This document shows positions 2,084 to 46,600 of a stretch of DNA of 64,000 nucleotides, piece by piece (within the stretch, counting starts at the first letter, position 1; each line of letters opens with the position of its first letter). The stretch covers positions 24,223,886 to 24,287,885 of the forward strand of contig NC_081138.1 of NCBI RefSeq assembly GCF_958295425.1, given 5' to 3'. The position numbers and the translations under genes were made by a program. Origin of the DNA: Solea solea. Taxonomy: Eukaryota; Chordata; Actinopteri; Pleuronectiformes; Soleidae. The notes under the pieces were generated by a model. The model had not been told where the DNA came from and did not search any database. It saw nothing but the letters and a program-made list of their open reading frames with translations.

Positions 2084-5000
2084 ATGGAGCAGGAATCTCT
2101 GGAAAGCACGTCGGGGGGAAGGACAGAGTCTGTAAACTCGATGATATCGGACTCGGACGCGCTGGTGGCAGATGTGTCGTCGTTCGTTAACGTTGAGCTC
2201 GACGACGAGGAAAACAATAATAACGGCATACACGCACATGATCATTATGCCCCAGCCATAACTCAAGGTATGTGTCAAGGTAGAAGGTATTTACTGTTAA
2301 ATGTGTTACATGTGTGGCTTAGGTTCACCAGTTAGCCAACAGTTAGCCCCACTGCTTTGAGTAAATGCATCCAAATATTCAGTTCAACCCTCAGTGTACT
2401 ACCCTCTTAAGTCACTAAGGACAAAAATGTCCACTTCCAAAAAACTGCTATGAAAACTGTCACATCTACTGTTTGTCAATCCACACGCTTTTCTACCTCC
2501 TTTAAGGGGATATGTGCACATCAAATATGCATAAATACAGGCCGATGGAAACACACCAGTTGAGCTGATATGTGATGATGTGGTTTAAGTGAATTCTTTT
2601 TTTGGCCAACAGCTCTTTTTCAGAATGATGAGGAGGATGAAGATGGGAGTAGTGAAAGTGATGAAGATGACGACAGTGGCACAGACAACTTCAACAGTGA
2701 CAAGTCAGGGACGAAGCTGCAGCGACGTGAGCGTCATGCAGGAGAGACTTCAAGTCTTCCTGGTACATTTCAGACGAGCCACCTGCTGTTCTATGAGAGG
2801 TTCAAGGCATATCAGGACTACATGCTTGGTACCAGCACACACACAGTCATGCAGTCTTCCTCCAGTACAGAATTGTGGTAATACCAGGTTTACCTGGTCA
2901 TTAGACTGCTGCTCTCAATGTATGTTTGTATATTTGTTTGTAGGAGACTGTAAGCCTTCTGAGGTAAAGGCCTTCATATCAGACTACCTGGAGAAGGTGG
3001 TGGAGCCGTGTGATTGGCTCGCTGTGTGGTCTACTGATGTCTTTGATGTTCTGGTGGAGGTAAGACGAAAACCCCTGTTCCACACACAAACACTCAGTTA
3101 CATCTAGCTTTTAAATGTAATTCCTTTCAGTCCTGGCTGGATCTAATATTGGGTACTAAAAACAGAGTTGACTACTAAATATCAGAGTATCAGTATCAGA
3201 GTATCAGGCTATTATTAGGCCATCTATTGGCACATGATAACGTTTGCTGAATTTTGGTTTTGTTAAACCAAAAAAAAGGTAAAAAAAACAACAACTTTAC
3301 AATCAAAAAAATTAATGGATTCATGACTGAATACTAGAGTGCTTTTACTTTGAAACAACACTTTTTTCTGTGTCTACTTTCCATATGACAGATGTAGACA
3401 TTGAGGCTGTGGGAGATAAGTGTGTGTTTTGCTGTAAACTGCACACAGCTTGCTGGAAAAACCGGTGTGCGAGCTCTGTTCTCACAAAGAGAAGCATGGT
3501 TCACATCACACACTTCCAATCTGATAACATACATGGGTGCCTAAATGAAAAGCAAAACATTCCAAAATGCAGAAAAGTTTGTCATCATAAAGGCAATCAC
3601 AGTAAATTACGCAAGGTATGAGCGCTAATGATGTTTTGGTGATTTCAGGTATGTGATCTGGATCTAAAGGATCTGAAGGCATGTGTGAAGACAGTGCTGC
3701 CACTGCAGTGTGACACTAGAGGCTGTGACCTCACTGAAGAGGCCATGAACTCTGTGCTAGAAGCCAACCAGCACAAAGTGTCACTGCAGGAGCTGCAGGT
3801 AGTCTACGACGAGTCTGGGGAAGTTGATCAGACCGCCCTCGCTCTGGAGCACCTCAGGTGGGACTGCTGAACTGGTGCTCTACCTGGAGTTCACTTGTTG
3901 GTGTTATTGGTTGATTTCATTTTGTCCTCTCTTCACTTCGTTCTGCAGCTTTTTCTTTAATCACATCTGGAGGCAGTGGGATGAGGAAGATGAAGACGAT
4001 GACTTTGACTACTTTGTTCGTTGTGTCGAGCCTCGCCTCAGACTGTAAGTACACCCTCAGTTTTTATGTTGGTCTTGTAATGAGAAGTGTTTTTTCATTC
4101 CCGTGAATCCTATTTGAAAATGTGCTTTCGCAGCTACTACGACATCCTAGAAGACCGAGTTCCAACAGGCCTGGTGGCAGAATACCAATCATTATTGGAG
4201 AAATGCTCTCAGTGCTTCCAGCTGTTCTCTGCACTTCGTAGTGGCCTTAGCACTGACTCCGACTCCGAGCTGGACAACGTGTCCATGGTGGAGGGACTAA
4301 AGCTCTACGACCAGCTGGAGAGATTTAAGCGTAAACTGCACATCATTGAGAACCCCCTATTGAGGTAAAGGATTTGTGTGTCTAAACTCCAGCTCTCATT
4401 TCCCCTACATCGTTACCACTATTGCCACTTTGGCTCTCTCATCCAACTTTTAACACAACATGGATGTTGTCCTCCATCAACTTCTGTCCAGGTATGTGCT
4501 GGGCTACAAAGGTAATGCCAGGCAGCAGTGTGTGCAGAGTCGTGGACTCAGAACCACTGGTGTGAAGGTGGTTCATGTCGTCACATCGTCCTGCAGCACC
4601 ATCCAGCTTCAGTCCCTCCTCAATACCAGACTACTGCCTCTGTGCTCCAATGGGGAAACAGAGATACAGGTGAGAAGTAAAACAAAACAAAAAACACACA
4701 CTTATAAAGTTGTTTTTGTTGAGTTAGGTCATGATCCTAAGGTTGAGATGTGTGGGCCACAGCACCAGATGAAAAAACTGATTTTAGCCACTTTACAAAA
4801 GGCTCAATGTGAAAAAGTACTATTTTTTGACATCATTTAAGGTCAGCACAGTCAGATGTTGTGTACACTCTCACTGCAACCCTAAGCATTGATGGGAATT
4901 CTAAAGTTTGTCCCAAAGGTGCCACCAGAGGGAAGCAAACAAGTCAAGTCAATTGTATTTATATAGCCCAACACCACAAACACAGTTTGCCTCGACCCTA

Positions 5001-17582: not shown

Positions 17583-19973
17583 ATGGACAACACATATCAA
17601 CACCAGACTCCGCCAGGAAAGCCACAACACCCGGTCTACAATGGCACCTATGAGAACCAGTACTTCGCCAACAGGCCTCCTCCGAGCACCGCGCCTCCTG
17701 AAAGCACACAGTGGACACGGTCACAGCAAGACCCCGCAGCTCCTCCGTGGAACAACCCACCGGGATATGTCGCTCACCAAAACTACGGACACAATTCAAC
17801 TATATCGCCTAATACTGGAGGAGCAGGTTACGGAGGGCCTCATTTAGCCCTTCCGTATGGTTTTGACCCATCCGTCCCTCCGCCTCCCTTCGGCTGTCCT
17901 CCTCTGGGATACTTCCCGACCTCAGTACCCTCCACAAACTCCTTTAACGGCTTCCCGCAGCACAGAGGTGGTCCTCAGCCCCGTCACGATGAATTACCGT
18001 CGATGTCAGACTTTGGTGAGAACCGGCAGCAGAATTATGATGATTTCCGTGAGCCCGGGGCTGTTTACCCTCCTCCTCCAAGTCAGGATCATGACCGGAG
18101 ACCGACAATAACATTATCACAACCCGATAATGAAGCCGCCTCTGAGAAGAGGCAGGACAGACAGTGGCTTAAACGGTTCTTACAGAGCCGGTCTAAAGTG
18201 CCAAAGAGCCTGCAGACCAAGCACGAGCCGCGGCCACACCACAGCGACGTCCCCGCCATGAAAGATGCTCTGTACGGGGCAGCTGAGCTCGTCTTAGCGT
18301 TGGAAAAGTCCTGTGAAACTCTGAAAGACAACATTGAGAATGAGTCTGTGTGGACGGACACATATCAGACTGTTTTAAACACGAAGAGAGACCTCCAGAA
18401 CAAACTGAATCTGCTCAGTGACGAAGAGGGTTTAAAGCGGTTAAAGGACAAACTCAGCCGTGCAGAGAAGAGGAGAGCCCGGAGACGCAGGGCCAACATT
18501 CTGCTCCGGCAGCTCGTGAAACAGAGACAGGAAGACATGGCTGAGAAAGAAGCTGCTATAGACGCATGGAGGATGAAGAAGATACGGGAGGTGGAGGAGA
18601 AGAAGAAGGTGAGATTTGGTTACTGTAGGTGTTGCTGCAGAGCAAACATTCTCACTTTAGTGTGTTAAAATGTAAGGATGGAGTCAGTGAGCATCACCTG
18701 GGTCATAAAAGAATAGTCTATTGCATTAATATGTTGTTCTATGTTGAGGGGGGCACACTCCGCTCAGATGATGCTGACTGTGTCACTACCTCAGCCAGTG
18801 TAGAAGGCCGTGTGTTCCATATTTAATCTGTAACTTAACAGATGGATATTCTCAGATGATGTGAACATATCTAATGTGTTTTTGCATGTTTGCATAAACC
18901 AGGAGCAAGAGCTGAAGCTGGCTGCAGACTCGGTCCTTTGCGAGGTGAGGAAGAAACAGTCGGATGTGAAGAGGATGCAGGACATTCTGAGATCCCTGGA
19001 GAAACTGCGTAAGCTGAGGAAGGAGGCAGCGTCCAGGAAAGGTGAGAGGAACCTCTGTCTATTAATCTATTTAAGTGATGAAGATTTGCATAGCGTTTTT
19101 CTCTCGTCCATTCACAACTGATGAGGCTGTCTGTGTGTGCGTGTGTGTCAGGTATTGTCACAGAGCCGGAATGTGACCAAGCTTTTAGCGATCGACTAGA
19201 GAGCCTGAGGACTGTGATCCAGAGGAGGACAACTATTTACGCAGTAGAGGAGAAAGCTCTGATGGTGATGCTAGAAGGAGAACAGGAGGAGGAACGGAGG
19301 AGAGAGCAGGAGAGACGGACCAAAAAGGAAAGAGACCGACAGCTGCAGAGGAAACGCAGAATAGATGCCATGTTGTTTGGAGGTAATGTGTCATTAAAAC
19401 AACAGCATGACCAGGTCACATATGCATTACTGCATAGGTGTGTTTTTGTTAATAATTTTTCTGTATTTGTTTTCCAGATGAAATTCCTGTTGATTCTTTC
19501 TTGCGGCCATTTACAGAATACTACACCCAGGCTCAGCACTCAATGCACGCTTTAATACAAATCAGGTGAGGCATGTCATGTCATAATCAAGTCTTGTGTC
19601 GGTTCCAGTATCATAACACTGAAAGCTTTAAGGCAGAAAATCAACGCGTATGCATTAGGCCCTATAGTTAGTTAGTTTTCTGCCCATATTCACACAGCTG
19701 GAGATGAGGGGGAAAAACACTTTACTCATATTTTATTATTACATTTTTGTAATGAAAATAGAATGTTTAGACATGATTCGCACATGGCTGTCTTACCTTT
19801 TGTAGAAAGAGCTCACGGCTGTATTGTTTTTGTCTTTCAGGAGCGATTGGGATGCATTTCTGGTTTCAGCAGATCATCCTGATGGTTCTACGGTTCCTCA
19901 GAGCTGGATCATCCCAGACCACCCTTCAGACCAGAATTGGGCCACTGCTCTACAAACTGCTGACAGTGACTGA
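17583..19973 (+). CDS. pdcd7: Programmed cell death protein 7 (U11/U12 snRNP 59K), 5 coding exons
   Basis: Exons 17583-18608, 18903-19041, 19152-19382, 19478-19565 and 19841-19973 join in phase to 538 residues (human about 485). The large first exon encodes a Pro/Gln/Tyr-rich low-complexity N-terminus (about residues 1-190). It is followed by a long Lys/Arg/Glu-rich coiled-coil region continuing through exons 2 and 3 (RAEKRRARRRRANILLRQL; EEERRREQERRTKKERDRQ). The conserved C-terminal block has PVDSFLRPFTEYYTQAQHSM, SDWDAFLV, HPDGSTVPQSWIIP and WATAL. PDCD7 is the 59-kDa subunit of the U11/U12 di-snRNP of the minor spliceosome and bridges to the 65K and 35K proteins; it was also described as a pro-apoptotic protein (ES18). 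An AATAAA lies at 20037-20042. The C-terminal match makes the call firm. Confidence 0.93.
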
Positions 19974-25782: not shown

Positions 25783-27285
25783 CTACAGGTTAGCCGAGCA
25801 CTGTGGAGACAATATAGGACACTCGCTGAGGAGCTTGATGTTCTGATCGTTAGTCACATCCAAACTGTTGTCAGTGATTAACATTGAGGCTTTAGGCAGC
25901 CTCAGTAGGAATGTATACATGGATCCAATTCTGCCGAAACCTTGCATCTCACGTTTCGGTCGCCATCTGTAACGGTCCACAGTGTACTCGGTGGTCACCT
26001 GTCTGCTGAGGGTGAACACGGAGTCTCCTCTCACCACAGCAGTGAGCAGTGAGCCCTTACTGTTCCCATACTGGCCGGACATGGCCGTCCACTGTCCAGA
26101 GGTCAGACTGTAGCAGTCGATCACACACCGCAAGAAGTCCTCGCAGGGTCCATTTCGCATCACGTACAGGTTGTCATTATGGGCCACCATATAAATCCCA
26201 TAACTGTGCTGGCGTACCAGTGTGGTGACCAGAAGCCACTGATCTGGTTTAGACGTGTATTCAAAGATATCTGTGGCCCCTTGTCCTCGCCATAGACAGA
26301 TAAACATCCTGTTCATGGCTACAGCAGAGGCCACTGAGGCTGCAGGGAAAGGGAGTGCAGACACAAAACTCCAGCTCCCATCAGACACTTGGTACCTCTC
26401 CACAGACGACATGGCCTTCTTGTTGTACTCCCCTCCTACAGCATACAGGCAGTCCTCATGTCCTATCAGAGTGAGGTTGTAGCGCAGTTGCTGGGGGCCA
26501 CAGATGGTCGACCATGCGTTTGTTTCAGGGTCGTAGCAGAAACCCGTCTCGACCACCTTCTTGCTCACATCATGCACCCCTCCAATTATGTAGAGTCTGT
26601 TCTGGAGAACGGCCACACCTGCCATGGTGGTGCTGGTGCTCGCGGGGAGATGTGTCAGGACCTTCCACTCTCTGGGCTCTTCCTCCAGGTACCAGACCGT
26701 CCTCTGGACGTCCGGCAGCAGCTCTGTGGACGGAGAGTGGCTGCACACAGCCATGTAGCTGCTCGGCAGAAGAGATTGGATGTAGTCGACCAGCTTGTTG
26801 GGTAGAGTGTGAAGTTCGTCCCTCAGGTCTGCGTACATGTCTCTGATGAACAAGGCTGAGCTGTGGGACAGCTCCCACACACCATAGGTGGCTGCTGTAT
26901 GGTACATGAGCAAACAGTTTTCAGAGTTGATGACATTGATCAAGTGCTTGGTGAGGGCCGACACCTGCAGAAAAGCCGTACACTCAATGGCTTCCACTAT
27001 CTGGTCACTGTTGAGCGCTGGCCGCTCCCCGTCCAGGACTCGCAGCAAGACCGAGAAACCCAGAACTCCGACACATTGCAGTTGAATCTCTTCTTTCTGG
27101 CACTCTATCATCCCTGACTGGAACAATGCCCTGAAGTACTCACAGTTCTCAGCCAGAGTGCCTCTGTCCACAAAGAAAGAGTTGCCAGTAATGTTGATCC
27201 TCAGCCTGTGTGGTGGTGGTGGTGGTGGTGGCGGCGGCTTAGAGTCGCTGGACTCCATCACCTCCTCTTTGTTGCACAGCTTCAT
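25783..27285 (-). CDS. kbtbd13: Kelch repeat and BTB domain-containing protein 13, single exon
   Basis: An uninterrupted 500-residue frame; human KBTBD13 is also single-exon (458 residues). The BTB domain covers about residues 25-135 (ENCEYFRALFQSGM; FSVLLRVLDGERPAL; VEAIECTAFLQVSALTKHLI). Kelch repeats follow from about 210 (LYIIGGVHDVSKKVVETGFC; DCLYAVGGEYNKKAMSSVER; SYGIYMVAHNDNLYVMRNGP). Human KBTBD13 is a CUL3 ubiquitin-ligase adaptor and an actin-binding regulator of muscle relaxation, mutated in nemaline myopathy 6. The fish protein begins with an extra roughly 20-residue leader containing a nine-Pro run, encoded by a GGT/TGG microsatellite (about 27206-27237). The position beside ubap1l matches human 15q22. 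The first ATG gives this leader; there is no later methionine before the BTB core, so the start is well supported. Confidence 0.95.
   Translation of the reverse strand: MKLCNKEEVMESSDSKPPPPPPPPPHRLRINITGNSFFVDRGTLAENCEYFRALFQSGMIECQKEEIQLQCVGVLGFSVLLRVLDGERPALNSDQIVEAIECTAFLQVSALTKHLINVINSENCLLMYHTAATYGVWELSHSSALFIRDMYADLRDELHTLPNKLVDYIQSLLPSSYMAVCSHSPSTELLPDVQRTVWYLEEEPREWKVLTHLPASTSTTMAGVAVLQNRLYIIGGVHDVSKKVVETGFCYDPETNAWSTICGPQQLRYNLTLIGHEDCLYAVGGEYNKKAMSSVERYQVSDGSWSFVSALPFPAASVASAVAMNRMFICLWRGQGATDIFEYTSKPDQWLLVTTLVRQHSYGIYMVAHNDNLYVMRNGPCEDFLRCVIDCYSLTSGQWTAMSGQYGNSKGSLLTAVVRGDSVFTLSRQVTTEYTVDRYRWRPKREMQGFGRIGSMYTFLLRLPKASMLITDNSLDVTNDQNIKLLSECPILSPQCSANL
27206..27237 (-). repeat. Coding (GGT)n microsatellite, polyproline of kbtbd13
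   Basis: TGG/TGGC repeat in the first 25 codons of kbtbd13, read on the minus strand as nine consecutive Pro codons. Likely length-polymorphic. Confidence 0.9.
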
Positions 27286-28640
27286 GACATCTCCTGCTCA
27301 GAGTCTGACCCAGACCATTTACACTGTCTCACCACTCACTCACTCCCTGGCAGAGTGAATGCCTCCTGTCCAGCTCTGAGGACAGACTCTATACATAGCA
27401 GGCAGACATGTGACGCGATTCAGGAGCTGGATAATTGCAGGGTCGCTGAAAGTGTGCTGATGATTCATATTGCTCTTTGTTTGTGGTTGACAGCTGTGGG
27501 ACAGCTGAAGATTTGCCCTTGAGCAGGTCGCTCCTCTTGATTACAATATAGATGCCAGCCATTGAAACTCACAAGGACATGCAGGACTTATTACTATTCT
27601 TGTTTATATTAGTGACATAAACTATTATTACTCCTTGTTGATGCTGTCCTGTTGCACGGAGGCAGTGGTGCTTTCTTAACCAATAATGAAATATGTATGT
27701 TCTTGACTGTGTCAAAGAAAAATTAAACAACTAGTGCTTCAAGTGGCACGGACTGGACGGACACTCTCATGCACCTGTGCACCCAATTGTTGGCTGGCTA
27801 TGTGAGGACATAGCTCTGGGAAGAGTTCTGGATGTAAAGGAAGCTGCTGTTGCTTTCTGTGTCCAGTGGGTGGCGCCAGAGTCAGGCCTCCAATCATCCA
27901 CTTTAACTAGTTAAAGACAGAGGGCGACATCAGACATGACATGATGTGTTCCGTGCAGGAAGTTTGGTAAACAAAGTACAGACGAGTCACACTGTACTTC
28001 TCATTATTATGCACCTGTATAACATAGTGGTGCTGTGACTTTGATTGTATATTGCTGTCATGATGCGTTCAAGACACAAGGTGTAAGTTACAGTAGAAAT
28101 TTGGCACGTGCAAAATACCCCTCCAAAAAGCCACTAAATTCAAAATGGCCAACTTCCTGTTGTTTTAATCCAATTACAGTGAGGAATGTGATCATTCTCC
28201 TTCTTCCCAGAATACATATTTAGATTTAGATTATTTATTGGTGATTTACGATTGTATCATCTGCTGAGTTACAGTGTGAGTGTCAGATACTTCAATGAGC
28301 ACAGTTTTCAGTATTATAATGGTACGTTGCCACAACAAGACTCCATAAGGCTGTAAACTGTCTGATAAAAACTGTTAATAAAAAAAACTGTAAAAAATGT
28401 TGTGTTACTCTTCTTTACATATTAAAACTGGATGCAACTGAGCTGTAGAGTAAAAATCATCTAAGAAAGCAAATGAGTATATTTTACAAAATACAGATTA
28501 GACAGATCCTTTAAAAAACAAAGACATAAGTGCTGCGAATGAACTGTAATGTCATCGTATCTAATCAAATTTCTCTACATAAGTACTATGAATTGTGTCA
28601 AATATGTTGAGATTATCATTGAATCTGCAATCTCAACTCT
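27286..28640. other. kbtbd13 - slc51b intergenic region
   Basis: Contains the kbtbd13 upstream region and the slc51b-like 3' UTR. No coding exon recognised. AT-rich, with no clear transposon termini. RASL12, which lies between these genes in human, was not detected here. Confidence 0.5.
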
Positions 28641-30557
28641 TCACTCCACTGTCTTCACTTCATCTTGAGTGTACATCTCAGCCTCTGACTCCAGTGACTG
28701 TTTCTTCTCCTCCTCCTCCTCCTCCTCTTCCTTCTCCTCCTCTTTCTTCTCCTCCTCTTTCTTCCCCTCCTCCTCCTGCTTCTGTTCTTCAGGATCCGGG
28801 TACAGGCAGGAGGTGTTGCCATCTTTCCACGTGACCACAATTCTTCCCGCCCTGAGCGGGTCCACTTCTCCGTTGCCAGGAGATGGCGGTGAGGCTTTGC
28901 AGTTGCTATCATCTTTGTGGAGTGAGGTCATCTGCAGCCTCTCATCTTCGTTCTTCTCAATCGCGGATGACGCTGCTGCCGCTGCCTTGTACTTAGCTAT
29001 CTTTTTTCTGTTCCTGTGGGGGGAAAAAAAGGAAGGAAACAGTCGCCTGTCACCGGCTTTCAAAATGATGTGACACACGACATGTTTTGCCATCAACAAT
29101 GGTGTAATGTTAGGTCATACTTGTTGGCCATGGCTCCCATCCCCAGCAGCAGAAAACCAACAAGAAGGCAGACGAAAGACAGTCCCAGCAGCACAAACTT
29201 CCATGTGGTTGCTGCGATAGGAAGAATAGAACACTTTGGTGAACAAGCAGTGTGGTATTACATCCTCGCCACCTCTATGAAAACATCCATCTTCTACCAC
29301 TTCATCCTCCACATGAAGGTTGTGGGGACCCTGGGGTTCACCCTGGACAAGTCATCAGTCCATCACAGGGCCACACAGAGACAAACAACCATCCACTCTC
29401 ACACTACTGTCAATTTAGAGTGTCCAATTTGCCCAAATCTGCATGTTTTTGTATTCAGTTCTTTAGGAAAAGAGGTGAGGAACTTCCTTTCAGAGCCTCG
29501 CGGATGTTTGAAACCACTGAGTGACCAGTGTCTGACAGTGTCAGCAGATGAATGGAGATGCCACATGATCCTTTTCAACACAGTCTTGACAGATTAGATT
29601 ATCAATGACATAATGATATGACTTTGTCAGAGCACGTACGGTCCTCTGTGCGATGAAACCAGCGGAGATACGCTTTTGTTTCTTCTGTCATGCCCTCCAT
29701 CTCATCTGGATGCTCCTCAGCAAACTCGTCTGGATCAGCAGAGGCCCTCCTGAGTCCTGAAGCACAAGTTTAAAGGGATGAGATTGTTTGAGGTACTAAT
29801 CCATCACTCTACCTGAGAGACAGATGGACACAAGTAAAAAAAAGTTATTGCAATTTGAGTCTTTTCTAACTGGAAACTGATGTTTGTGTCAGTTTGTAAC
29901 CACTCACTCACTGTAACCAGACACTTGCCTGTCTTGTGCTGGTTCTTGGTGCAGAGGGTGCCAATATGCAACACAAGTAAACGTTCCTTTTAATAAAGCC
30001 CAATAATTCTACTTTTACTTTCTCCCTTACTTACGGAGTTTTTCTTGGCAGATGTCGCCCTCGTCCAAAGACCTCCACTTTGAGTGTTTGCTCTTTAGAC
30101 TCAGAGTCAGGTGTTGGCCGTCCACTGCCAGCAGCATTGACATGTTCCTGCTCATGAGTCTGTCCCTGTCACAGTCCCACATTAACCCTGCAGCCTCCTC
30201 ATCCGGCCCCCCACAGGACCTGGTCCAGACTGGCTTCATCTGCTGCGCTGACAAACACCTGGACGAGCCGATACACATCAACATTCCCTGACCGATCCAG
30301 ACCCACTGCTGGAACTCAGAGTCCGGGTTGCACCTCTTCAGCAGGACTGGACTTGTCGCTGAGTCCTCCAGACACAGGCTGTGGTGGGTGTTGTAGATCA
30401 TGAACGCTCTCCCCCCTACAGAGTAACAGGTGTTTTTTTTGTTTGTTTTTTTTAAATCAAATTATACAAATATATGAAGCATAAATCATAAATGTGATAG
30501 AAAGAGCATCATTTTACCTGACAGGAGGAGGAACAGCAGGATCCCGACACTAAACAT
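28641..30557 (-). CDS. slc51b: Ricin-B lectin / organic solute transporter beta-like fusion protein, 5 coding exons
   Basis: Exons in order: 30557-30518, 30415-30035, 29756-29640, 29211-29121 and 29013-28641. All are GT-AG and in phase: 1002 nt, 333 residues. Residues 1-17 (MFSVGILLFLLLSGGRA) are a signal peptide. About 18-140 are a ricin-B-type lectin domain like the N-terminus of mannose receptors (FMIYNTHHSLCLEDS, FQQWVWIGQGMLMCIGSSRC, LMWDCDRD, WRSLDEGDICQ). After an acidic linker comes LRWFHRTEDPTTWKF, which aligns with human OST-beta LWFFRVEDASPWN. Then a transmembrane helix at about 182-203, a basic stop (NKNRKKIAKYK), and a cytosolic tail with GRIVVTWKDGNTSCLYPDPE and a poly-Glu run. 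OST-beta (SLC51B) is the one-pass N-out subunit that pairs with SLC51A to export bile acids and steroids. The place next to kbtbd13 fits human 15q22. The lectin part is unexpected; an alternative is a lectin receptor with chance similarity. A 5' UTR exon probably ends at 31592. Confidence 0.8.
28705..28775 (-). repeat. Coding (GAG/GAA)n tract, poly-Glu of the slc51b-like gene
   Basis: TCC/TCT-rich repeat on the plus strand, read on the minus strand as mixed Glu/Lys codons ([20 protein letters not shown]). The antisense frame would be poly-Ser and is not a gene. Confidence 0.9.
29294..29452 (-). mobile_element. SINE fragment in an slc51b intron
   Basis: The minus strand reads AAAAACATGCAGATTTGGGC, AATTGGACACTCTAAATTGA, GTGAGAGTGGATGGTTGTTT and TTCATGTGGAGGATGAAGTG, the body of the same SINE family as 187-447. 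It lies between the linker and transmembrane exons. Confidence 0.8.
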
Positions 30558-34510: not shown

Positions 34511-36480
34511 CTATCCCACCACCACCACGTCTTCCTCTGGAAACTCGTAGAAGGGGACCTCCAAGTTGAGAGGGGCGGGACCCTTTCGTATACGGCCTGA
34601 AGCGTCATAGTGAGAACCGTGGCAGGGACAGTAGTAACCTCCGTATTCTCCGGCATTTGCGATGGGCACACAGCCCAGATGCGTGCACACACCAAGAACA
34701 ATGACCCAGCGCGGGTTGATGACCCGATCTTTGTCGTGCTCCGGGTCTCGCAGCTCAGAAAGATTCACTTCAGCTTCTGTGGCGATCTCCTTCTCTGTGC
34801 GGTGACGGACGAACAACGGCTTGCCTCTCCACTTAAAGGTCATGTTCTTGCCCTCTGGGATTTCGCCCAACTTGATTTCAATCTTGGACAGGGCCAGGAC
34901 ATCAGCTGAGGCACTCATGGTGGAAATAAACTGAGTCACCAGTGCCTTGGCACTGTAGACACCCACCACGACAGTGGCCCCGGTTGCCAGGTAGGAGAAA
35001 GCTCTCCTGGTTTCACTGCTTTCCTGTGATGACTTTTTGGGGTCGACCACATCCAGACGCCTGTAGTCTGAGAAATCTGGTATCTTTATATCTGTGTGGG
35101 CAAATCTGACTCCTGCACAGCCTGCAGATGGAAACAAGTGGGTGATCAGTTGGAGTGAACACTGTAAATGTGTCTAATTAAATTGGAGAAGCAATGTATC
35201 CCTAGGAATTTATAAAAATATCTGTTCATTGACTAATGACTTAAATGTATTCTTCATCTTGTATTTAATTTGTAAATGTTGTTAATGTAAATTCGGATAT
35301 GTAAACACCATTAATCTAACATGGAATAGATTGTTATGAGATCCAGTCAATTATGCAAAATTTCACATTTCAAAAGTGAGGCTTATTCCCCCTATTTTCC
35401 CCAATATTTGTCTGTAGTACATATTTATCCCCACTGCCCATGATATAAGGACGTGGGGCCCATGAACTACAGTCTCTGTGGCAGCCATTTTGGCCAGTGA
35501 TGCCCATAGCAAAGAACACACTGAATTTGACAAGGCTGCTGGTTTAGTTTTGTAAGTGTATGAGATTGTATGAGGTACTATTGTAGAGCTGCAACTAACG
35601 ATTATTATCACAATCCATTACTCAGGCGATTATTTTCTCGGTTAACCAAGAACGACTCAAACTGATTGAAGGATGATCAAAAACTTCACAATAAATGTAG
35701 TAATTGATTAGCAATTGATTACTCCAATAATCGTTGTAGCCTTATTGTCTGCAGTGATAGTACTGTGAATCTGTCAATTATTTTATCAAGTAATCAACCC
35801 GTTGTTTGAGTGAAAAATCATGTTTTCCTCATAGGATTAGATTTGTCCAGAAACCAAAAATATTCAGTTTACTGTAATAAAAGGGATAAATATTTGTACA
35901 AAAAGATTACAATTTGACTCGTTTTTTTTTTAATGAAAAACTGGTAAAAATGTGTAAAATAAAAGTTCTTATGTGCTCCATCTTTCTGTGAATTTTGACA
36001 CTTATAGCAGAAACCCGACTTCCGTTGCTATACAAGAGCGGAGCATTGGAAGCTAACATCAGGGGTGACACCGGGAGACCGGCTGTGTTTAGTCTACATA
36101 TTATTCACCACACCGCAACTCAGATTGCTTTAATACCGAGTTAATTCGGATACCTAGCCACCCAGGACAACAAAAGACCACATCAGATAGAATACACAAT
36201 TCACCCCTAAAGAGAAGAGAATTAACCTTCTACGCTAAAGCTAACGCTAGTGGCTGACTACACACTCACCGTTGACGCTAGCCGTCACCGCGGGCCCAGT
36301 CTTAGGGGTTTGACCGCTTAGTGACTCTCGGCACAGGAACGGTTTCTTCGGGTCCAACAAAATCTTCTCGCTCGTCACAACCACGCCCGGCACCAGAGGT
36401 TTGAGGGGGCCGGCCACTGTGAAAGCGGTAGCCTGCAAGTAAGGGGAAAAAGCCCCTGACCGGGCAGCTAGGGACATCAT
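34511..36480 (-). CDS. uqcrfs1: Cytochrome b-c1 complex Rieske iron-sulfur subunit, 2 exons
   Basis: Exons 36480-36270 and 35121-34511 join in phase to 273 residues (human 274). The N-terminus ([15 protein letters not shown]) is a mitochondrial presequence, which in this family is cleaved and kept as a separate complex III subunit. Then come [14 protein letters not shown], a hydrophobic anchor ([20 protein letters not shown], about residues 112-131), and the hinge [15 protein letters not shown]. The Rieske fold has both 2Fe-2S motifs, CTHLGC and CPCHGS, followed by [21 protein letters not shown]. It transfers electrons from ubiquinol to cytochrome c1 in the inner mitochondrial membrane. The two-exon structure matches human. 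The first Met aligns with the human start. A CRE lies about 75 bp upstream. An intact functional gene. Confidence 0.97.
35584..35744. mobile_element. hAT-like MITE in the uqcrfs1 intron
   Basis: Ends TAGAGCTGCAACTAACGATTATT and AATAATCGTTGTAGCCTTA are inverted repeats. The interior has the repeated CGATTA / TAATTGATTA motifs of a widespread fish MITE. A one-sided fragment of a related family is at 1598-1650. Confidence 0.7.
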
Positions 36481-43600: not shown

Positions 43601-46600
43601 GAACATGCTGCTATTTCAGAAGCAGTGTGGTTCTGGAAGGGATCATTCGGAATAGCATTATGATGTGTCACATGTAATTTCTTCACTTTTAGTATAATTA
43701 CGTACACCATCTGGTATGTTTTTGCTCCAAAGTACACAATTAAGGGATTATGGGGATTTTAATTTTAAAAGTAGGTTGTTTTTATTGTCTGGACCCATGG
43801 TTCTCAAACTGTTGTACAAGCTTCCTCTGGTGGTACTTGGAGAACAATCAGAAACACTGTTCTTCCATATATACCAGGGTATGTGATCAGAGTGGAGCTG
43901 AGGAATGTGTGTAGAAATTTAAATAAAAAGCAGTCTCTGAGTATCTCTCATTGCATCTTTATCTAATTTCACTATACCAGTGTATGAAGTGTATGTGAGG
44001 AAGATGATGATGATGATGAGAGACCAAATTGTCTTACTGGGAATAAATCTACTTCTTGTGAAAAGTCCATAGCTGACTTTGCGCGACCTATTTACACCAC
44101 TGTATTTTAACTTTGATGTTACTTCCTGTGCCCTATATTTTCTCAGGTGATACTTGGTATAGAAATGTTGAGAACCACTGGTCTAGCCCATTGCTCCTTT
44201 GAATGTTCCAGATCAAAAAACAATGATAGAATGAAAACGTGTTTTACCTGCTGTTTGTATTGTTCCATAGCATCCTCCAGAGCAGCTAAAAAGTCTGTGT
44301 TCTCTTTCTCCAATCGCTGAATTCTTTCCTCGTGCTCGCCATTGTGCTCATGGCTCCACCTCTCCTCTGCAGCCTCCGGATCCTTGTATTAAACCACATG
44401 TATAGATATAGAGACTGAATACCAAAATACATGAAAAATGGCTTCAATATAGAGTGAGTGAAAGAAACATACCTGGTTTCTTACAGTAGGCCTTCCCCTC
44501 CTCAGGGCAACAGTGTCCTCAGTGGAGCTGTTCTCAATGCCACTGTCTGGGCCCGAGGCAGTGGTCAGTCTGCTTGGTTCCTCTTCCACTGAGCACAGCC
44601 ACTCCTTCACTCTTAAATTCTGTTCTGCTGTCAGGGAACCTTCTCTCTGCAGCTCCAGCAGCAACCTGTGATACATTAGATGATTCATTTAACATTCAAG
44701 CTTCTTGGAGATGACTGAGGAGGGATGTCCAATTTGTGCTCCACAGGCCTAAGAGATGCAGTCACTTCTATTGTTGTCTAAAAACTATTTGTGTCTAAAA
44801 ACAATGTCACTGACAGGATCAACAGAAAAAGAGTTGATAGTAGATAGAAGTGCCAGGACTCCCCTTATCCATATGCGGCATGTTTGTCATGTTACTAAAT
44901 CATCATTATTATTTTATGCTTATCCAGGTCCCGATGGAAGAGACTAAATCATAAAACTTCGGTTTTATTCCTTATTAAAATAGCTACAAACAAGTGATTT
45001 AAATGGTTTGAACTTCAGGCACACAGTCCATTTTTTTTGGTGTCATGTTATTATGCTGTCCTCCAGGACACAAATGTGGCAGGTAGTCAGTGAACTTGCT
45101 AAATCTAGCAGGGTAAGCCAAAATGTTTAAACGTTTGTCTGTCGTGATGACTGCAGAGTAAAAAACGCAGCACATTAAACGTAAATAAGCTGATACCAAC
45201 AGTTTAATAATCACTTAAGGATGTTTGGAATTCATATAATCCTAGCCAAATTCTGTAGCACTTTTTGCTGGTATTTTCTGATTCCTAATCATTCCAAAGC
45301 AAAGTTAGAATAAAGTCTAACTTTAAGTCTAAGGTCTGGTTGATGCAGAATAAATATAACTTGAGGAATGAATGTACTTTTACCTGTAAGCAATGTCTGT
45401 GCAAGTCCTATAGTGGGCACTTTGGGCCTGCAGTCTGCTGATCTCTCCCTCTCCAAGTCGAGGTCTCCTGTTTGGATCCGCATGGGAGATGATGCGGGTT
45501 TCTGAACGTTGGCGGTTTTCAAGCGCTCTGCGAAGGGCCTTGATTTGTTGCTCCAAGCCTTCCACTCGATCCGGCTCGCGCCTGTAGTTGACTGTAGCCC
45601 GGTTCTGGATGTTTCTGGCCCTTGTGGCATAGTTCAGTGTGTTTAGACTCTCATCAAAGTCTGAGGATGATGGGCTGACGCAGGCAATCATCAGTGTTTT
45701 TGAATTTCCTCCCAATGAGTCTTTTAGGATCCTAGATAAACAGACATCATATAAATCAAATAACACAGACATAACAATTTCTATCATCTAACTTAAGTCT
45801 CATTTAATGTACCTTGTAATTTTTGAATCCCTGTATGGTATATGAGAGCCTTTCCTCTTAGGATCCCCAAGTGCCCCAATAACATTTCCGAGGGCCAGAA
45901 GGCCGCTGTTAATCTGGATGCTCTCCTTCAGTCTCTCTCCAGTGTTTCCTGTCTTTAAGATTCGCTCTGACCCTGCCAAGTCAACAAAGTGGAACTTGGA
46001 AGACAACATTTGTGGTCCAGAAGCCGTTGCAGTCCCGTAAATCCGTGGAATCCCCCGGCGCTGGTCCATATACATGGTAAAAATAGTGTGTGATCGGCTG
46101 GAGTTTGGATTCATCTGGGTGGCACCAGTGTGCCTGGCTGTGTTTCCCGACTCTAGTAAACTCAACACCTCATCGAGGCCTTCCACTTCACACTCTTTGA
46201 CACCAGACAAAACTGAAGTAACAAAAACAGAAAAACACAAACCATTAACAAGTACGTAATATGCTAAAAAGAAGAAATGTAACAGCAAAAGTAAAAGACT
46301 GGCATGACATACCAATGTTGCCTTTGTCCTCCCGGATGTGGATGTCCTTGCTGGCTGTCTCCACCTCCAGTAAGTCCTTGAACTCCTCTTTGTAGACCTC
46401 CAGGTAGGAGACTCGGACAGAAAAGTCTGTGAGGTCATTTTCATCTAGCAGCTTGAAGATATCAGCAACAGCCCTGGGGATGATACCCTGCACCTCATCT
46501 CTAAAGGAACCTTCAAACACAAGTGAAACACATAATGTAAATGCATGCAACTGGTTTCACTTGCTCAGAGCACAGCTTTGTTTGACCAATGTCTTCTCTC

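Follow-up and report, generated by a model that had tools for sequence, protein, structure and literature searches.

How a lectin-type domain comes to be encoded directly ahead of a bile-acid transporter subunit, and whether it stays with that subunit once the protein has matured, is the question raised by a locus in Solea solea. The locus lies in a window of 64,000 nucleotides, the whole stretch of DNA that was analysed (NC_081138.1, positions 24,223,886 to 24,287,885 of the forward strand), and encodes a relative of OST-beta, the partner of OST-alpha in what the accessible part of PMC4924846 describes as the major intestinal bile-acid efflux transporter.

The sole slc51b gene and its product

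A preliminary description of this stretch had proposed five exons with GT-AG junctions in phase and a product of 333 residues, a structure that was reproduced when the exons were joined. By conceptual splicing, slc51b consists of five exons on the minus strand (30557-28641) with GT-AG at 4/4 junctions and phases of 1/1/1/2 that keep the frame consistent, the joined exons amounting to 1002 nt or 333 codons and a stop. The features of the gene and its two syntenic neighbours are as follows.

30518..30557, minus strand: exon 1, start codon and hydrophobic predicted signal peptide, residues 1-13, ending in phase 1
30035..30415, minus strand: exon 2, complete CysR / ricin-type beta-trefoil domain, residues 14-140, a symmetric 1-1 exon
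29640..29756, minus strand: exon 3, furin-type site, acidic linker, predicted helix from about MTEETKAYL, LRWFHRTED motif
29746..29756, minus strand: furin-type site R141-L-R-R144 followed by A-S, a sequence motif
29121..29211, minus strand: exon 4, OST-beta transmembrane helix
28641..29013, minus strand: exon 5, tail (cytosolic if the protein is N-out), conserved IVVTWKDGN motif, low-complexity acidic end
25786..27297, minus strand: KBTBD13-like BTB-kelch gene, syntenic neighbour
17583..18665, plus strand: PDCD7 exon, syntenic neighbour

The codon of R141 is split, its first base (30035) being the last of exon 2 and the remainder lying in exon 3. The prediction of a signal peptide is based on the hydropathy of the exon 1 product (19-residue maximum of 1.95, counted from residue 2).

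Two Pfam profiles exceed their cut-offs on the joined protein, OSTbeta (PF15048; E 2.7e-13, 50.5 bits against a cut-off of 27, residues 164-237) and CysR_MRC2_N (PF24562; E 4.9e-11, 43 bits against 27, residues 17-137), and sequence matches in the PDB to the mannose receptor (2.1e-8) and OST-beta (7e-4) agree with them. These results confirm that the sole gene encodes a lectin-type domain in frame with a true OST-beta, as the preliminary description had claimed on both counts, the fusion and the profile match of the OST-beta half. Its assignment of the first half to the ricin-B type held for the beta-trefoil and not for the exact family: Ricin_B_lectin (PF00652) reached 26.7 bits, just under its cut-off of 29, and the closer assignment is to the CysR domain that stands at the N-terminus of mannose receptor family members. 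No Pfam match to FN2 or C-type lectin domains followed it within the 333 residues. A single transmembrane helix is predicted directly after the WxxRxED motif (hydropathy peak at residues 179-211; helix 180-225 in the structure model), and the W, R, E and D of this motif are each kept in 77/77 aligned homologs.

The gene is, judged by its sequence and surroundings, the ray-finned-fish ortholog of SLC51B. Human OST-beta (PDB 9ljg chain B) shares with it the WxxRxED-type motif before the single helix, the preceding acidic stretch and PF15048. The KBTBD13-like gene adjoins it as previously described and, like PDCD7, lies at most 10 kb from its 3' end; both types of gene, BTB-kelch (KBTBD13) and PDCD7, adjoin human SLC51B as well. 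Human OST-beta is not known to have a signal peptide, a CysR domain or a furin-type site; the fish gene, unlike its human counterpart, provides a leader of 140 residues ahead of the furin-type site. The human protein measures 128 residues in all (accessible part of PMC4924846).

A genome search with the joined protein as query, exon by exon and with E up to 10, was of limited sensitivity and recovered only the gene's own exons over the diagnostic OST-beta residues 163-195, in keeping with the earlier expectation that the genome holds no better separate slc51b. All other matches to the OST-beta half were confined to residues 196-333; the best of them (C41:500563, E 2e-5), the one inspected by sequence, was rejected as a low-complexity CTT stretch. 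A PF15048 family search of the genome returned no match, the known slc51b included, and is uninformative. OST-alpha-like loci are present at C4:8054366 (3.5e-9 to OST-alpha 9ljg_A, two exon pieces joined) and at C30:2515554 (1.3e-6, divergent in appearance), 9ljg_A being the best PDB match of both, such that a predicted partner for OST-beta is encoded in the same genome, with which it may form a transporter. A third OST-alpha-like locus, C1:39046125, resembles that on C4 when judged by eye. We note that three OST-alpha-like loci were found in this genome vs one OST-beta. Other exons in the window encode parts of a Rieske protein (UQCRFS1-like; 34514-35173, minus strand), a kinesin motor (45803-46444, minus strand) and an SHCBP1-like protein (2589-3104, plus strand).

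Distribution of the fusion and its transcripts

Three protein searches listed 184 different homologs, two of the lists holding the best 120 of 184 and the best 120 of 160 matches. Lectin content was scored with an HMM trained on 75 of the 77 members of the alignment, the other two being poor in lectin, and a score of 40 bits or more was taken as a full lectin. A complete lectin precedes OST-beta in 155/184 homologs, namely 147 of the 164 in which the OST-beta motif could be anchored and 8 of the 20 unanchored ones. The rest of the 164 comprise 3 proteins with a decayed lectin and 14 with a short N-terminus, among which five are partial sequences with a strict furin-type site (P0117, P0152, P0153, P0154, P0172) and nine are without one (four models starting at an MTEEQ-type methionine, three eel copies, P0159 and P0170); the remaining 12 unanchored rows are short fragments without lectin and were left unclassified.

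Carriers of the fusion among the teleosts listed include Solea, Oryzias, Gadus, trout, pike, Chanos, Danio, catfishes, eels, Megalops and a mormyrid; outside teleosts the matches listed add bowfin, gar, paddlefish and sturgeon. The closest match listed is the Solea senegalensis protein (92% identity over 100% of the query; 97% in the alignment). No protein of bichir, shark, coelacanth, lungfish or tetrapod appeared among the matches listed, which were filtered by word. On the sequences sampled, the fusion is thus old and widespread in ray-finned fishes; the preliminary description, which ascribed it to a single fish lineage, was too narrow on this point. The lectin of the cod protein (Gadus, P0114) carries a long Glu/Gly/Ala-rich insertion inside the domain.

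The two halves also appear to be joined in transcripts. Short contigs (source tag 'lgn', 1,070-2,834 nt) supply 22 homologs in which both halves lie in one uninterrupted frame, with less than 300 nt to spare around the coding frame in 9 of them. Such a frame could come from an intron-split gene only by way of spliced RNA; we infer that the 'lgn' contigs are RNA-derived, which fits the expectation that lectin and OST-beta exons share one transcript. That two neighbouring genes were read as one through an error of annotation or assembly is accordingly an exceedingly remote prospect: the location of the halves in different exons is the one point in its favour, and against it stand the recurrence of the same fusion from sturgeon to sole, the intronless contigs and the consistent phases.

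Expression data are available for trout. PMC13157367 gives qPCR primers for rainbow trout slc51b, and their translations, EAEELQ and VVTWND, both occur in the trout fusion protein P0095; what that study measured as slc51b is therefore very probably the fusion gene. In its accessible part, slc51b and slc51a1 are among the most abundant bile-acid transporter transcripts of adipose tissue and rise in RNA-seq with every bile acid tested, the change of slc51b by qPCR being not significant; the words 'lectin' and 'cleavage' have no match there.

Databases hold the teleost gene under 'slc51b', si:cabz01068815.1 or 'Ricin B lectin domain-containing'. Many of these entries carry pre-computed Pfam domains of either kind side by side, meaning that annotation pipelines had already seen lectin and OST-beta together; the names designate either SLC51B or a ricin-B protein and leave the cleavage site unnamed. 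Among the open-licence PMC titles and abstracts listed, none dealt with a lectin, a fusion or a cleavage in SLC51B, and the accessible parts of PMC11342244 and PMC2575201 have no bearing on an SLC51B lectin or its cleavage.

The junction between the two halves

The element that the preliminary description overlooked is a motif at the junction. R-x-[K/R]-R starts five residues past the last lectin cysteine in nearly every homolog and is mostly followed by A-S. The strict motif is found in 146/155 full-lectin homologs (138/147 anchored and 8/8 unanchored), and at least R-x-x-R in 153/155; a Conger isoform (P0125) and a Myxocyprinus protein (P0134) are the two that combine a full lectin with a tested stretch devoid of R-x-x-R. 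Sturgeon and paddlefish possess the lectin with a weak site, R-A-T-R only. When the 50 residues ahead of the OST-beta motif were shuffled in 500 rounds, the strict motif arose on average in 10.1 and at most in 19 of 147 sequences, vs the 138 observed, and elsewhere within the lectin part it occurs in 2/147. The P4 arginine stands exactly five residues after the last cysteine in 134/138 strict-site homologs. Across the 77 aligned members, Arg occupies P4 in 74 and P1 in 73, Arg or Lys occupies P2 in 72, and P3 varies; Ala is the commonest P1' residue (105/138) and A-S the commonest pair. The motif thus looks like a convertase recognition site, and cleavage at this position is predicted.

The motif might be kept for another reason, as a trafficking signal or as a PKA-type site that is never cut, since it often reads R-[KR]-A-S or R-R-A-S, the latter of which presumably also fits a PKA site. 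This we regard as very improbable; the P4 arginine, unneeded in a PKA motif, is as conserved as that at P1 (74 vs 73 of 77), and the motif lies on the predicted luminal side of the membrane.

The 16 residues behind the motif drift in the 77-member alignment, and variability, scored as entropy in bits plus twice the share of gaps, comes to 2.78 in this linker, 1.77 in the lectin and 0.96 in the OST-beta core, which is much better conserved than the lectin, a domain that some lineages have lost or let decay. The six cysteines of the lectin are near-invariant, each being found in 74-76 of 77 sequences. Between the site and the transmembrane motif there is no cysteine in 146/147 strict-site sequences (a set different from the 147 anchored full-lectin homologs, as it includes the sole sequence from the window and partial ones), and after a cut no covalent tie between the halves would hence be expected. 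The distance from the putative cut to the W of WxxRxED/LRWF is 28 residues in sole (median 30, range 17-38), and 25 residues precede the matching W26 of human OST-beta (PDB alignment, 9ljg chain B). The structure model places the site within a predicted helix (residues 135-145) rather than in a clear loop, with block pLDDT values of 82 for residues 131-140, 65 for residues 141-150 and 49 for the neighbouring block.

We consider it probable that the ray-finned-fish slc51b product is a pre-pro-protein, made of a CysR domain, a furin-type site and OST-beta, that is cleaved to yield an unattached lectin-like domain and an OST-beta of short, canonical form. Points that speak against cleavage are the helix predicted over the site, the weak R-A-T-R of sturgeon and paddlefish, the two full-lectin homologs devoid of R-x-x-R, the fit of R-R-A-S to a PKA site, the lower conservation of the lectin relative to the OST-beta core, and the RRAS still read by two lectin-free models (Syngnathus P0170, Sphaeramia P0159). 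The predicted signal peptide would start translocation of the precursor; the CysR beta-trefoil would fold first in the ER lumen and the OST-beta helix would anchor the chain, the precursor then pairing with OST-alpha. A furin-type convertase of the trans-Golgi would cut after RLRR144 to leave a mature OST-beta starting 28 residues before the W of LRWF, and the CysR domain would be released with no cysteine tether remaining. Accessory single-pass subunits of the ATP6AP1/Ac45 type have a large luminal domain that furin removes, and offer, with no sequence relation claimed, a working likeness for the proposed fish OST-beta. Most likely, the CysR domain primarily serves as a pro-domain for folding and export, an activity of the released piece being a second and less certain step.

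The preliminary description instead left the lectin attached to the mature transporter, covalently bound at the cell surface and binding glycans of OST-alpha, the matrix or the lumen. The in-frame fusion, the six near-invariant cysteines, a QxW in lobe 1 and the helix predicted over the site are compatible with such an arrangement, which nevertheless seems unlikely to us given the strict furin-type site in 146/155 homologs. Nor did glycan binding find support in the MRC1 residue examined. The lectin part is a predicted beta-trefoil with a fold match to the CysR domain of MRC1; the equivalent of MRC1 Trp117, the residue stacking against sulfated GalNAc in that receptor (accessible part of PMC4635314), is missing in 15/15 OST-beta lectins tested and retained in the MRC1 exon of the same sole genome, and binding at an MRC1-type site was rejected for this reason. 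A further point against a glycan-binding lectin is position C+2, an Asp in ricin: of 77 sequences, 57 have Glu here and 2 have Asp, though the next position is Asp in 56/77. Because of the conserved site between the halves, the mature subunit is likely to be lectin-free, with the lectin as a detachable pro-domain.

More tentatively, fish OST-beta may be a two-product precursor, shedding one soluble mannose-receptor-type beta-trefoil per matured OST-beta at the basolateral face of enterocytes and hepatocytes, and so coupling a secreted factor 1:1 to transporter output in sturgeons, gars and teleosts alike, which the human protein would not do. Were the precursor indeed required to shed its lectin-like domain, convertase cleavage would add a new level of control to a bile-acid transporter, fishes would secrete a lectin-like protein that is so far undescribed and linked to bile-acid flow, and zebrafish or trout slc51b would be no simple stand-in for the human gene.

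Natural variants and the origin of the lectin exon

Natural variants, small in number and known from unverified gene models, bear on what the site is for. Two mormyrid proteins and one pipefish protein with a decayed lectin and a long N-terminus keep the strict site (3/3); three eel second copies (P0163, P0165, P0171) have a signal-like start and neither lectin nor site (3/3). That the site persists with a decayed lectin and is absent from the lectin-free eel copies suggests, as far as these models go, that a clean OST-beta N-terminus is what matters. The N-terminal tail of human OST-beta is required for pairing with OST-alpha (accessible part of PMC4924846). Second slc51b copies are carried by elopomorph fishes (eels, Megalops), those of Megalops (P0136, P0139) having kept the lectin with a site reading R-x-N-R. 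In Syngnathus acus P0170 the signal-like exon 1 is joined straight to LRRAS; this protein and Sphaeramia P0159 have no lectin and no P4 Arg, and still read RRAS, which exon 3 encodes. In the pipefish relatives P0166, P0167 and P0170 the lectin is shortened, decayed or missing and OST-beta is intact.

Alternatively, the lectin could be optional, with skipping of exon 2 or an internal MTEEQ start giving a working lectin-free OST-beta and the fusion representing a minor isoform. Exon 2 being a symmetric 1-1 exon, its skipping would preserve the frame (206 residues); the Syngnathus P0170 model runs its signal-like peptide directly into LRRAS, and four database models begin at an MTEEQ-type methionine. 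We nonetheless hold this to be improbable. All 22 short-contig homologs hold the lectin (a ratio biased by their having been chosen as long ones), and both lectin and site are conserved. The four lectin-free entries (P0161, P0164, P0156, P0168) were treated as probably truncated models, as P0161 is identical to the tail of the fusion protein P0031 from the same species. Under the precursor reading that we favour, the losses (eel second copies, the Syngnathus model) and the decay (mormyrids, other pipefishes) provide ready comparisons of the transporter with and without its lectin.

As to where the lectin came from, the fish domain shares PF24562, the six cysteines and a phase-1 exon with the CysR domains of the mannose receptor family (MRC1, MRC2, PLA2R1/FcRY, LY75), from which slc51b differs in having neither FN2 and C-type lectin domains nor Trp117. 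Exon 2 of slc51b has phase-1 ends at both sides, and so do the CysR exons of MRC1 (L011), LY75 (L009) and a PLA2R-type gene (L010) in the same genome, which were identified by PDB matches and whose junctions were chosen by eye on splice consensus, not cDNA, among several candidates. This shared phase points to exon capture from a mannose-receptor-type gene, and lends support to the origin by exon shuffling put forward in the preliminary description. In a tree, 15 OST-beta lectins from sole to sturgeon form a separate group (99/98) apart from nine receptor rows, with the qualification that branches between the groups are long, that the program warns of false joining and that the midpoint root is arbitrary. 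A single capture would suffice to account for one such group. It may have taken place in ray-finned fishes or earlier, and an ancestral long form lost in mammals, the other origin offered in the preliminary description, is a further candidate, no bichir, shark, coelacanth or tetrapod protein being among the matches listed. No specific donor among MRC1, MRC2, PLA2R1 and LY75 was singled out, as the OST-beta lectins group apart from these on long branches. The PLA2R-type and LY75 CysR exons (C24:5213641 and C24:5250690) are separated by 37 kb, and slc51b is located on the same chromosome.
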